This document shows positions 49,001 through 64,000 of a DNA stretch of 64,000 nt, one piece after another (positions within the stretch are counted from its first letter, which is position 1; each line of letters begins with the position of its first letter). Under the pieces are notes generated by a model. That model was not told the DNA's origin and searched no databases. It saw only the letters and a list, made by a program, of their open reading frames with translations. The stretch comes from Symmetrospora coprosmae. Its lineage: Eukaryota > Basidiomycota > Cystobasidiomycetes > Symmetrosporaceae. Location: NCBI GenBank assembly GCA_008802785.1, contig VUYT01000008.1, forward strand, positions 248,001 through 312,000, given 5' to 3'. The position numbers were made by a program, and so were the translations under genes.

Positions 49001-50689
49001 TCGTGACAGGCTGCGATGGCATCGTGTAATACAGAGACGATGGGTCGGAGTAGAAATGGTGTGCCATGTGCACTAGCGGCTGCTGTTGCTGGTGGTGCTG
49101 CATGACGGGCGTCGGCAGAGGCGGGAGCGGAGGCGCAAAGTTGTATGCACTGCTGTGAAACTGCTGAGGTGACGAGTTCATCGGGCCATGCCCAAAGGTG
49201 GAGGACTGCATGTGTGGCGAGATGCCATCCTTCTGATTGTTGTTGTTGTTGCTGCCGTCCCCATAGTCACTATTTGACAAGAAGTGCGAGTCCATGTGGT
49301 TGTGCTGACCATTGCTCCTCGTGCTGCTGCCCATACCAGTGTGATTATTGGACTGGCTGCCGACACCTCCTGACAGAGCAATGGCCTGCTCGAGCATGTG
49401 AAGATTGCCCTTGTCGGTCTCCATGGCCGAGCCATCCTGGAAGATGGAGGACGACGAGGCATTGCCAGCACTGCTGTTGGTGGTCTGTGCCTGTTGCTTG
49501 CTAGTACCCGCACCTGTGCGGCCTTGGTTACTGCGCTTCTCTGGCTTGCTGCTGCGGATGGTGCTCGATGCGGGGCCAACTGACTGGTGCCCATCGGGGG
49601 TGTAGTAGGTCGCTGCTTGTCGCTTCGGCGATGGCCTGGCGTGTCGAAGTAACGGGTTCATCAGGCCGCATGTCAGTATGAGCGATAAGCGCTTTGTTCG
49701 TGGCGAGCTGCGTGTCTGGGCTTGTCTACCAGTGACTGCCCGCTAGTGACTCACTCTGCCTCTCCCGGTGCCTGCTTGCGCTTCCTCCCACGGTTATGCT
49801 TGAGCACTCTGCGTGGAGCACGGCGCAGCGCAATAAAGTGAAGCGCAGGTCGAGATGGAGCGAGAGACAGCGCCAATGCCGTAATCAGGATGGAATGAGC
49901 GGTTGAGCGTGTGAAGTGGCAGATTTGTCATGGAAAGAGCAGAGCGGTGGGTGGGTGAGCACAGAGAGAGAGCGCGCTTCCCGTCAGCGACAATACCGCA
50001 TTCCCGACGGCAGCGTGGGCCTGTGCCGGAAGAGACAGCCACAGGCACCTGGTGTATACTCACTCGCAGGTCAGTCCAATGTTGAGGCAGCGCGTGCATG
50101 GAAATGGCTGCTCCAGGCTGGGAGGGACGCATCGCAGCTTGTGCCCTCTGCAGCCTGTGCACGCCTGAGCTCCGCGCTGGATGGGCCGTGCGAGCTTCTT
50201 GCCTTGCCGCCCGCTGCTGCCCGCTCCTCCTCCTCCTCCGTTGCCGCCGCTGCCGGCCGCACTCGCAGGAGCCGCTCGAGAGGAAGACGGTGTACCCTCG
50301 TGCTCGCTGCCTGGCCGTGTACCGCGTCCCGTCTCTGCATCGCTGTCGTCGTCCTCGTCTTGCTCATCCTGCTCGTGCTCGTGCTCCTGCTCGTGCTCCT
50401 GCTCGTGGTCGTGCTCATTATCGTGCTCCCGGTCGCGGTCGTTGTCGCGGTCGAGCGTCTCGGCAGGGGACTCTGCTCGAGCTCCATCATAGCGATGATG
50501 GTGCTGCCGCCCATCCTGCTGACGCGGGTGCCAGTACAGGGACGACTCCTGCTGATGTGCCTGCCGTTGCTGCTGCTGCTGCTGGTCCTCAGCCTCGTCT
50601 CGCGCGGAGTCCTCCTGCGCGCGGAAGCTAGCACCACCACCGCCGCCGCTGCTGCCGTGACTGTACTGCTCGTACGCGGCAGCGGTGGC

Positions 50690-50728
<39 letters not shown>

Positions 50729-50914
50729 CAGACCCGAATGGTGCTGATGCTGATGGCGATGGTAGACGTCGCTGTCGTATGTGCGATGCTGCTGCTGCTG
50801 CTGCAAGAGTGTGCCGCTTGTACTGCTTGCACTTGGGAATGACGAACCTGCGCCATGTCCTCCTTCGAATTCCCCTCCTCCTCCTCCTCCCTGCTCGGTC
50901 GTCTCGGTGCCCAT
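46100..50914 (-). CDS. large Zn2Cys6 transcription factor with polyQ and charged repeats
   Basis: Ten exons, 50914-50064, 49808-49755, 49707-48188, 48123-47858, 47786-47659, 47590-47298, 47230-47172, 47107-46935, 46873-46228 and 46159-46100, give 1349 residues. The DNA-binding domain is ACTGCRGHKLRC, a 10-residue loop, then CTRCLNIGLTC, spliced to the basic linker EVLKHNRGRKRKQ. Before it lie Gly, polyQ, His/Asp/Glu and Ser tracts; after it a long Gln/Ser/Asn-rich region. The effector part starts near FLIPRGDRVGRRGMFSLTSL and runs through an all-helical fungal transcription-factor domain (KSKFLYTAILSVISRYL, AIAIARELGLDQVAL, RVWLSLFVANTI). Start at 50914 is the first ATG in the open frame. Target genes are unknown; Leu3/War1-like relatives sense metabolites. 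Confidence 0.85.
48681..48700. repeat. short CTG/CAG tract in the Zn2Cys6 gene
   Basis: Six or seven CTG/TTG units encode a polyglutamine run in the low-complexity region after the DNA-binding domain. Confidence 0.7.
50345..50460. repeat. imperfect His/Glu/Gln/Asp codon repeat
   Basis: Imperfect repeats of GCTCGTGCTC type on the plus strand encode a run of alternating H, E, Q and D (HEHDHEQEHEQ and on) on the minus strand, upstream of the zinc cluster. Confidence 0.7.
50691..50730. repeat. long CTG/CAG tract in the Zn2Cys6 gene
   Basis: About thirteen CTG units with one TTG interruption encode thirteen glutamines near residue 70 of the transcription factor. Confidence 0.85.
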
Positions 50915-51466
50915 TCTCCCCTTCCTGCAGTGCCTGCCCAACTACCCGAGACTGCTCCTTCCTGCCAGTGCTGCCTGCGCTTGGACTGCACGTTGCTCCT
51001 CCTTTCCCTCAGGCTCTTTTCAGTCTCCTCCGGATCCTCCAAGAAGCCTGCTCTGGCTCAGGGACATCTATCCGGCACTGCACCCTTTTCCTTCCTTAGA
51101 TGACCGAGAGAGGATTGTCCTGATGACAAGAAGGCGAAAGCAAGCCGAGCGCGGCGGGCGAGTGTGCTTTGGTCCTGGCGCCGGAGATCTCAAGCGAGCC
51201 ACTGCGCAGCGAACAAGAGATCCATACACGACAGTGTCCTTCCGACCAGCGGAACTGTCACATGCAACGCAATGTCCATGTCTTCTCCGCTGTCCGTTCT
51301 TTCCGGCTCGCTGCGGGGTGGCAACGACATCGACAGGATCGACGACGCAGAGGCGGGCTTCGGGCTTCAAGACGCGTCTTTCAGTCGGCAGTCGGTGACA
51401 CAACAAGCACTAACAACCCTGTGAAAGAAACCATGTGGAACTACCACCTAAGAAACCAAATCTCAG
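50915..51466. other. intergenic, about 550 bases
   Basis: This is the promoter and leader of the Zn2Cys6 gene and the 3' flank of MCM5. It is C/T-rich on the plus strand near 50880-51010. Open frames run through it on both strands but have no protein-like conservation. Confidence 0.4.
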
Positions 51467-60560: not shown

Positions 60561-63500
60561 TTAGGCCTTGACGGCAGCGACGGGGGCAGACAGCGCAACC
60601 CTCTTGGTGTGGCTTCGGCTCTTGATGGAGCCAGCAACTGGCAGTGGGGAAGGAGCGGACATGAGGTACGAGTCGATGGATGCGGCTGCGCGACGGCCTT
60701 CGTTGATACCCCAGACGACGAGGGACTGGCCTCTCCTGCAATCACCAGCAGCAAAGACGTTTTCGTAGCCAGTGTGGTAGTCGGTGGTGTTTGCCTTGAT
60801 GTTGCTTCGCGGGTCCTGCTCAAGGCCGAGCTGCTTGATGGCAGCGGTCTCGGGGCCGAGGAAACCAAGTGCAAGAAGGCAGAGTCTGCGGAACAACAAT
60901 GGTCAGTTGCATTCCGCCAAGCTGCAATGTCTTAAAGGCAACTCACTGTGCAGGGATGAACTTCTCCGAGCCCTTGACTTGCGCCATCTTCCAGGCACCA
61001 TTGTCGTCCTTGGTCCATTCGACCTTGATGGTGTCGAGACCCTTGAGCGCGCCGTTCTCATCGACAACAAACTTGAGCGTCGAGATGGAGTACTCTCGCG
61101 GGTCGGCACCGAAATGGTGCTCAACCTCAGTGTGGCCGTAGTCCTTGCGGAAGATGCGGGCCTGCATGAAGTGCAACAACCGCGTCAGTGAAGACGAGAC
61201 AATGGCAGCAGGTTTCGGAAAGTACGCACAAACTGCGGCCACGGGTTGTCAGCGGCTCGAGTGCCAGGAGGCGTAGGCAGAAGCTCGAGGTTGGTGACGC
61301 TCTTTGCGCCGTGACGGACACTGGTGCCGATGCAGTCATTTCCGGTGTCGCCACCGCCGATGACGACAACATCCTTGCCCTCGGCCGAGATGAACTTGCC
61401 GTCCTTGAGCTCGCTGTCCATCAACGACTTGGTGTTCTTTGTCAGGAACTCCATGGCGAAGTGGATGCCAGAGGCCTCTCGGCCCGGGATGGCCATGTCT
61501 CGAGGCCAGGTCGCACCCGTCGCGTAGAGGAGCGCGTCGTTGTTTGCCTTGAGATCGACAGCAGAGTAATTGGGGTCGGTGCCGACGTGGGCGTTCGTAA
61601 CCCACTTGATGCCCTCGGCCGCCAAGAGGTCCAGTCTCCTCTTGAGAAGGTTCTTGTCCAACTTCATGTTGGCTGTTTCGACGTGGGATTAGCTTACAGC
61701 CTGAGTTCCACGCTGAATAAAGGTTTCACTTACGAATTCCATACTGGCACAGCCCGCCTACGCGGTCCATTCTGGACCGTGACATACGGGAAGCAAGTCA
61801 GACACCTTGTCTGTGACGAGGTGGTCCTGCAGGACCCGCTTTGGCTGAGTCTTAAAGGGATCACCACTCACCGCTCGTACACGGTGACACTATGCCCGGC
61901 CTTGTTCAGCTGATCAGCAGCCGCTATACCCGCAGGTCCCGAACCGATGATAGCGACCTTCTTGCCGGTGCGGTGAGCAGGAGGACGCGGTACGACCCAT
62001 CCTTCCTCGAAGGCGCGGTCGATGATTGCCGCCTCGATGCTCTTGATGCCGACGGCATCGCTGTTGATGCCGAGAACACAGGCGCTCTCACACGGGGCGG
62101 CTAGGATGGCAAATATGGCAATAAGGCGGCGTTAGTATGCTGGTTGGCGGAAAGCGTACAGTTGATGAGGCTGATTGTCAACTTACGGCAACTGCGGAGG
62201 GATGGCAGGTTATAGATAGGCCAGGGGGCGTCAGCGGGACAGATGGCGACTGCGTCAAACATAGCGATTCAAGGACTTACACTCGACCGGTAATCTCTGG
62301 CAGGTTGTTCGTCGACATGAGCTTCTCATAGGCCTCTTGCCACTGGCCCTTGAAAACGAGGTCGTTCCACTTTGGGATGACATTGGAGATAGGACAGCCA
62401 GTGTCGCTCTGGCAGAACGGTACACCGCAATCCATACAGCGACTTGCTTGGCTCTTCAGCTCGTTCTCTGTGAGCCGGCTCGACAGTTCCTTGAAGTCTT
62501 TGGTCCTTTTGCTCGCGGGGCGATACTTCTCCGACAATCGGGCTTGCTTGAGGAAGCCACGAACTTTGTCTAGAGGAGCCAGAGCGCGCTTCTTCTCGGT
62601 CTCTCCATCGACCATGGAGTCCTCCAGGTCGATGACGGTCGGTTCGGACTTCGCCGGCTTGGCAGCCGGAACCTCTTCGACGCCGTTTGCAGGCTTCTTC
62701 GCCTTGTCCTCCTCCGGTGCGTATCCATCGGAAGAGATGTCGAAGCCGTTGAGTCCGGCTCGAGCCTCCTTGGCGGCCTTACCGGCCTGCTTCTCGAGGA
62801 CCGCCTTGTAGTCGGACGGCATGACTCGGACAAGCTTGGGCAGGTAGTCGGACCAGGCATCGAGGATCTTAGCTGCATGCTCAGATCCTGTGTAGTGCTT
62901 GTGGTTCTCGATGAGGCCCTTGACCGCGGCGATCTCTTCGGCCTCGGTGATCGGGCCGAGCTCGACGGACTCGGTGTTGCACTTGCTCTTGAAGTCGCCA
63001 TCCACGTCGAGGACGTAGGTGATTCCTCCACTCATGCCTGCTGCGAAGTTGCGTCCGGTGCTGCCGAGAATGACAACTCGACCTCCAGTCATGTACTCGC
63101 AACCGTGGTCTCCGACACCTTCGACAACAGCGTAGGCTCCGGAGTTTCGGACGGCGAATCGCTCGGCAGCGATACCCCGGAAGTATGCCTCTCCAGAGGT
63201 CGCACCGTACAGGCAGACGTTGCCGACGATGATGTTCTCCTCCGACTTGAAAGTGGACACCTTGGGCGGGTAGACGATGAGACGGCCTCCAGAGAGACCC
63301 TTTCCGACGTAGTCGTTGGCGTCACCCTCGAGCTCGACGGTGATACCCGGAGCCATGAATGCACCGAGCGACTGTCCAGCAGAACCCCTCATGTTGATGT
63401 GGATCGTGTCCTTGGGCAGACCCGCCTCGCCGTACTTCTTCGAGACCTTGTTGGACAGCGTGGTACCGAGCGCTCGATCGGTGTTGACGACGTCGCACTC

Positions 63501-64000
63501 GATCTTGACTGGCGTACCGTCGGCGATGGCCTTCTCGGACTCGTCGATGAACTTGTTGTCAAGACGGACGTAGAGACGGTGGTCCTGCTGGCGGCTCTTG
63601 AAGGTGGCAGCTCCCGGTCGCATCTTCCATGCGGGCTTGAGGATGGCGCTGAGGTCGAGGTGCTCGGTCTTTGCATTCCTGAGCGAGTCGTCGACCTTGA
63701 GGTGCTCGGCATGGCCAACCATCTCGTTGATAGTCCTGAAGCCAAGCTTGGACATGATGCCTCGAAGCTCCTCGGCGACGTAGTGGAAGAAGTTAATGAC
63801 CTGCTCGGGCTGGCCTCGGAACTTGGCTCGCAGCTCTGGGTCCTGCGTGGCGATTCCGACGGGGCAGGTGTTGAGGTGGCACTTCCTGGAGGTGCGCAAA
63901 CGCGAGAAAATGTTGTATCAGCCGAAATCCACGCTGGTAGACCGCAAAGCTAAAATATCGGACCTCATCATGATGCATCCCATCGCAATCAGGGGTGTTG
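60561..64000 (-). CDS. GLT1: NADH-dependent glutamate synthase (GOGAT), 5'-partial
   Basis: The 3' part of the gene: exons >64000-63964, 63885-62281, 62191-62187, 62100-61872, 61771-61734, 61672-61230, 61161-60947 and 60885-60561. GOGAT makes two glutamates from glutamine and 2-oxoglutarate with NADH. Visible are [20 protein letters not shown] (synthase domain), the GltS beta-helix ([39 protein letters not shown]), and the small-subunit-like part: [16 protein letters not shown] and [13 protein letters not shown] for the two [4Fe-4S] clusters, [17 protein letters not shown] for [15 protein letters not shown] for NADH and the final [24 protein letters not shown] needs a 5-base exon. The N-terminal glutaminase part lies beyond the window. 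Confidence 0.96.
62187..62191 (-). other. GLT1: 5-base micro-exon of glutamate synthase
   Basis: On the minus strand the bases TTGCC lie between an acceptor (cctccgcag) and a donor (gtaagttg). The upstream exon ends in GT and the downstream exon starts CCGCCC, so splicing gives GTT TGC CCC GCC, restoring Val-Cys-Pro-Ala of the conserved iron-sulfur motif. The flanking introns are 89 and 86 bases. Confidence 0.88.

Follow-up and report, generated by a model that had tools for sequence, protein, structure and literature searches.

A five-nucleotide coding exon carrying a probable iron-sulfur cysteine in the GLT1-type glutamate synthase gene of Symmetrospora coprosmae

The window analysed here, a stretch of 64,000 nt from a 20.05-Mb assembly, carries at its right end a GLT1-type glutamate synthase gene encoded on the minus strand. 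The part of this gene that lies within the window occupies positions 60561..64000, in such a way that the gene ends at 60561 and its start codon is found at the window-equivalent position 68089, beyond the window. The gene model comprises 12 introns (61-100 nt each), with GT-AG ends in 12/12, which add up to 884 nt of an unspliced span of 7529 nt and leave a coding sequence of 6645 nt (stop codon included) for a conceptual product of 2214 residues. The C-terminal 523 amino acids matched TIGR01317 (glutamate synthase small subunit) with 729.5 bits (cut-off, 447.7), and among solved structures this part also matched small subunits of glutamate synthase (e.g., 7mfm_I, E 6.7e-169). The product is thus a fusion of the large and small parts, as in GLT1-type NAD(P)H glutamate synthases, with the individual ligands of its clusters being putative assignments.

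One of the introns of this gene, at 63963-63886 on the minus strand, has a poor donor, GTCCGA, which scores -5.61 when those of the other 11 range between 4.91 and 10.38, and its removal is backed by the sequence of P0001, the closest protein match described below. In another region of the window, the minus-strand open reading frame at 50060-50941 shows extended runs of glutamine along with cysteines arranged as CTGCRGHKLRC...CTRC, a pattern which we take to resemble that of Zn2Cys6 transcription factors. Scans of the whole window with Rfam (gathering threshold) and for tRNAs gave no matches.

In this gene, the model places a micro-exon of sequence TTGCC at 62187..62191 of the minus strand. 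The preceding exon (62281..63885, minus strand) ends in ...CGAGT in phase 2 and is followed by intron A (62192..62280, minus strand), 89 nt long, which runs from GTAAGT to CCGCAG and bears a branch-point-like CTGAC 40 nt before its end. On the other side, intron B (62101..62186, minus strand) is 86 nt long, runs from GTAAGT to CCTAG and has a branch-point-like CTAAC 32 nt before its end, after which the downstream exon (61872..62100, minus strand) starts with CCGCCCCGTGTGAG, encoding APCESAC. TTGCC is flanked by ...CCCTCCGCAG on one side and GTAAGTTGAC on the other, so that an acceptor directly precedes the exon and a donor directly follows it (CCGCAG|TTGCC|GTAAGT), as corresponds to a coding micro-exon. 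The initial annotation had described these five bases as lying between consensus splice sites, and indeed they are bordered by two complete GT-AG introns with GTAAGT donors. Of the interval that it assigned to the feature, 62101..62281, the boundary at 62101 is right, and 62281 still belongs to the upstream exon, as its final base, so that the true composite interval of intron A, TTGCC and intron B is 62280-62101, of 180 nt. In the spliced model the order at the junction is GGTCGAGT, then TTGCC, then CCGCCCCG, and the joining of ...CGAGT, TTGCC and CCGCCCC... yields GRVCPAPCESAC, where the micro-exon completes V1797 with its third base, encodes C1798 in full and opens the codon of P1799 with its first base.

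The same five letters appear seven times on the minus strand of the gene, two of them in the final part of intron B (minus strand, 62121-62117 and 62112-62108); these extra copies in intron B may be due to chance or may be a trace of the origin of the exon. An origin of intron B as a duplicate of intron A was also considered and rejected, as the local similarity between them was unconvincing, with 110/2000 shuffles scoring equal or higher.

Possible structures for this region were enumerated over 304 nt, with one-intron models of the GT/GC-AG and AT-AC types and two-intron models of the GT/GC-AG type, with introns of at least 40 nt. None of the one-intron models enumerated produced the expected peptide, and these were rejected; exactly one two-intron model did, in such a way that the structure described above is the sole enumerated model yielding the protein. 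It had been claimed that only the inclusion of TTGCC gives VCPAPCESAC in frame, and the enumeration agrees with it, as does the presence of this junction in P0001. When stretches of 2, 5, 8, 11 and 14 nt were tried, the 180 nt contained one other frame-keeping AG..GT stretch, 11 nt long and without the right peptide. The splice signals were evaluated with matrices built from the gene's other 10 introns, a small sample. Out of 390 GT sites in this gene, 380 and 383 score below the GTAAGT donors of introns A and B, and out of 543 AG sites, 482 and 429 score below their acceptors. The same 10-intron matrix gives the two acceptors in use 3.5 and 1.6, and it favours two AGs left unused within the 180 nt, at offsets 31 (5.6) and 141 (6.4). 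The CTGAC of intron A is the sole CTNAY-type site near its end, and its spacing of 40 nt is slightly unusual, since in the other introns the best-placed site falls 17-33 nt from the acceptor.

A protein search returned 2312 matches among 4925 candidates, of which the best 120 were considered. The protein collection had been clustered at 90% identity, a procedure by which truncated isoforms were probably hidden. The top match was P0001, a jgi protein of 2214 amino acids that represents a cluster of 13 sequences from 5 contigs, the longest of 7025 nt. It is identical to the spliced model at 2212/2214 residues, differing only by T1734S and N2089K, and it contains VCPAPCESAC, ungapped, across the micro-exon junction. 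With 7025 nt at most, these contigs cannot accommodate the 7529 nt of the unspliced gene, so that P0001 is almost certainly the product of spliced RNA, assembled from this species or a very close one. With its RNA origin deduced in this way from length, the junction in P0001 places the micro-exon in the mature mRNA. In a tree built by FastTree from 28 of the 49 proteins aligned (see below), based on this one protein, P0001 and P0002 were located beside the rust fungi, among Pucciniomycotina, with a local support of 0.96. Another match, P0003, of 2900 amino acids and labelled Polarella glacialis, scored 538 bits, above the rust fungi, yet its best local alignment was only 46% identical; it may contain repeated domain copies or correspond to a mixed gene model.

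Conservation around the micro-exon was followed in an alignment of 49 of the best 120 listed proteins, whose named members are all fungi. Seven cysteines (C1745, C1748, C1753, C1759, C1798, C1802 and C1806) were invariant in 49/49 of them, and so were, within 1690-1850, the glutamates E1714, E1728, E1792 and E1821. Of the three columns that the micro-exon helps to encode, 1797 holds V in 44 proteins and I in 5, and both C1798 and P1799 are present in 49/49. Two [4Fe-4S] clusters have been described in the small-subunit part of glutamate synthase, with a glutamate serving as a ligand in one, and in the bacterial enzyme the association between the two subunits is abolished when cysteine ligands are mutated (PMC8097209). 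Two such clusters could be accommodated by seven cysteines plus one glutamate, and the invariance of C1798 agrees with the previous assignment of the micro-exon as the source of an iron-sulfur cysteine of glutamate synthase, a role that we consider probable for this residue from the alignment. The glutamate ligand is presumably E1821, judging from the spacing in the related dihydropyrimidine dehydrogenase.

The consequences of failed splicing were deduced from the sequence. Skipping of the micro-exon leads to ...ITGRVRPV followed by a stop, which bears out the claim that skipping breaks the frame; retention of intron A leads to ...ITGRV and a stop, and that of intron B adds 29 residues after GRV before a stop. 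The skip product and both retention products lose the FAD/NAD(P)H part, so that inclusion must be the productive path. The fact that any of these failures is unproductive could be taken in favour of a regulated process, in which skipping or retention would lower glutamate synthase through unproductive splicing and the exon would act as a switch for nitrogen assimilation; a glucose-dependent microexon switch is known in Trichoderma Xlr2, according to excerpts of that report (PMC11121469). However, an early stop is also produced by retention of any single intron of the gene (12/12), so the effect is not special to the micro-exon and gives no sign of special regulation at this point. No skipped or intron-retaining form came to light either, a negative of little weight because the clustering at 90% identity probably hides truncated proteins. 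The suggestion of the initial annotation that skipping might tune nitrogen assimilation thus finds no support here, and we consider such a switch to be very unlikely. A more elaborate version, even less likely in our opinion, would make the five-nucleotide exon a checkpoint whose inclusion is tuned, with messages being sent to decay according to nitrogen demand or splicing capacity, and which has been kept for that purpose across the rust relatives.

The arrangement could also be a stwintron, in which one intron is nested within a splice signal of a second one and TTGCC forms part of the nest. The two introns are indeed very near each other and are probably removed sequentially, as are the adjoining fungal introns of stwintrons described in excerpts of two reports (PMC9024468, PMC12403724). 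In those systems, however, one intron splits the splice signal of the other, whereas here donor, branch-point-like site and acceptor are all complete in each of the two introns, with no outer signal interrupted by an inner intron, and the five intervening bases are kept in the coding sequence behind P0001. This leads us to reject the assignment to that class as extremely improbable.

The chance of finding a structure of this kind was estimated by shuffling the interior of the 180 nt 20000 times with its dinucleotides preserved, keeping the outer splice sites and counting only 5-nt exons. Short exons arise easily by chance, since an AG..GT exon of 5 nt that restored exactly this peptide turned up in 53/20000 shuffles, and this could favour an artefact of the gene model or the assembly, consisting of a single intron plus a sequencing error with five bases that match fortuitously; but a GTRNGT donor was present as well in only 1/20000, no single intron produces the peptide, and P0001 independently contains the junction, provided that it derives from RNA, so that such an artefact is hardly credible.

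All these data lead us to conclude, with very little doubt, that TTGCC is a genuine and normally included 5-nt coding exon between two complete short introns. Regarding the mechanism, introns A and B would each be recognised across themselves (intron definition), because they are only 86-89 nt long and the skip product needs an intron of 180 nt, when the gene's other 10 introns measure 61-100 nt, with a median of 66.5. Both introns would be removed sequentially, because the factors that bind the acceptor and the donor can hardly share an exon of 5 nt. Selection would likely retain the exon, because its skipping or the retention of a neighbouring intron puts a stop inside the iron-sulfur domain.

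This gene thus provides a clear case in Basidiomycota, with support at the RNA level, of a 5-nt exon that encodes, in a core metabolic enzyme, an invariant cysteine which probably binds metal. Gene prediction with standard programs would probably fail to keep the GLT1-type gene whole at the micro-exon, which makes it valuable for testing annotation tools, and it is also useful for studying the splicing of short introns separated by a few bases where intron definition seems to be used. In the openly licensed literature, no published account linking glutamate synthase with a microexon was found, and among the matches listed for the broader micro-exon literature, also openly licensed, there was no title on this gene.

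The size of the exon has precedents, which we compare here from excerpts of the corresponding reports. The proposal of the initial annotation that five bases are near the lower limit of exons was overstated, as exons of 1 nt have been published in the APC11 gene of Arabidopsis (PMC4674806) and in the CYP621A P450 genes of Fusarium (PMC12940212). The Fusarium exon is comparable in several respects, being also fungal, tiny, placed in a conserved motif, essential for the frame and backed by RNA (RNA reads in the case of CYP621A), and in both cases an overlong apparent intron gives the micro-exon away; unlike the 5-nt exon described here, it has 1 nt, belongs to Ascomycota and is common to 20 Fusarium orthologues (PMC12940212). 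The APC11 exon is likewise tiny and constitutive, and its authors suggest intron definition combined with recursive (sequential) splicing, but it is a plant exon of 1 nt that was tested with reporter constructs (PMC4674806). Plant microexons of up to 15 nt, which include one of 5 nt in rice, fall in the same size class, are coding and are frequently absent from the annotation, the difference being that they belong to plants and that some have been demonstrated to be conserved between species (PMC8831610). Among basidiomycetes, the P450 genes of Phanerochaete chrysosporium also combine short introns with very short coding exons, but these exons are larger (down to 6 bp) and are found in a family of P450 genes, not in a single metabolic gene (PMC1184071). 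Tiny exons were therefore already known, and the 5-nt exon of GLT1 is a well-supported extreme example of them and not a new phenomenon.
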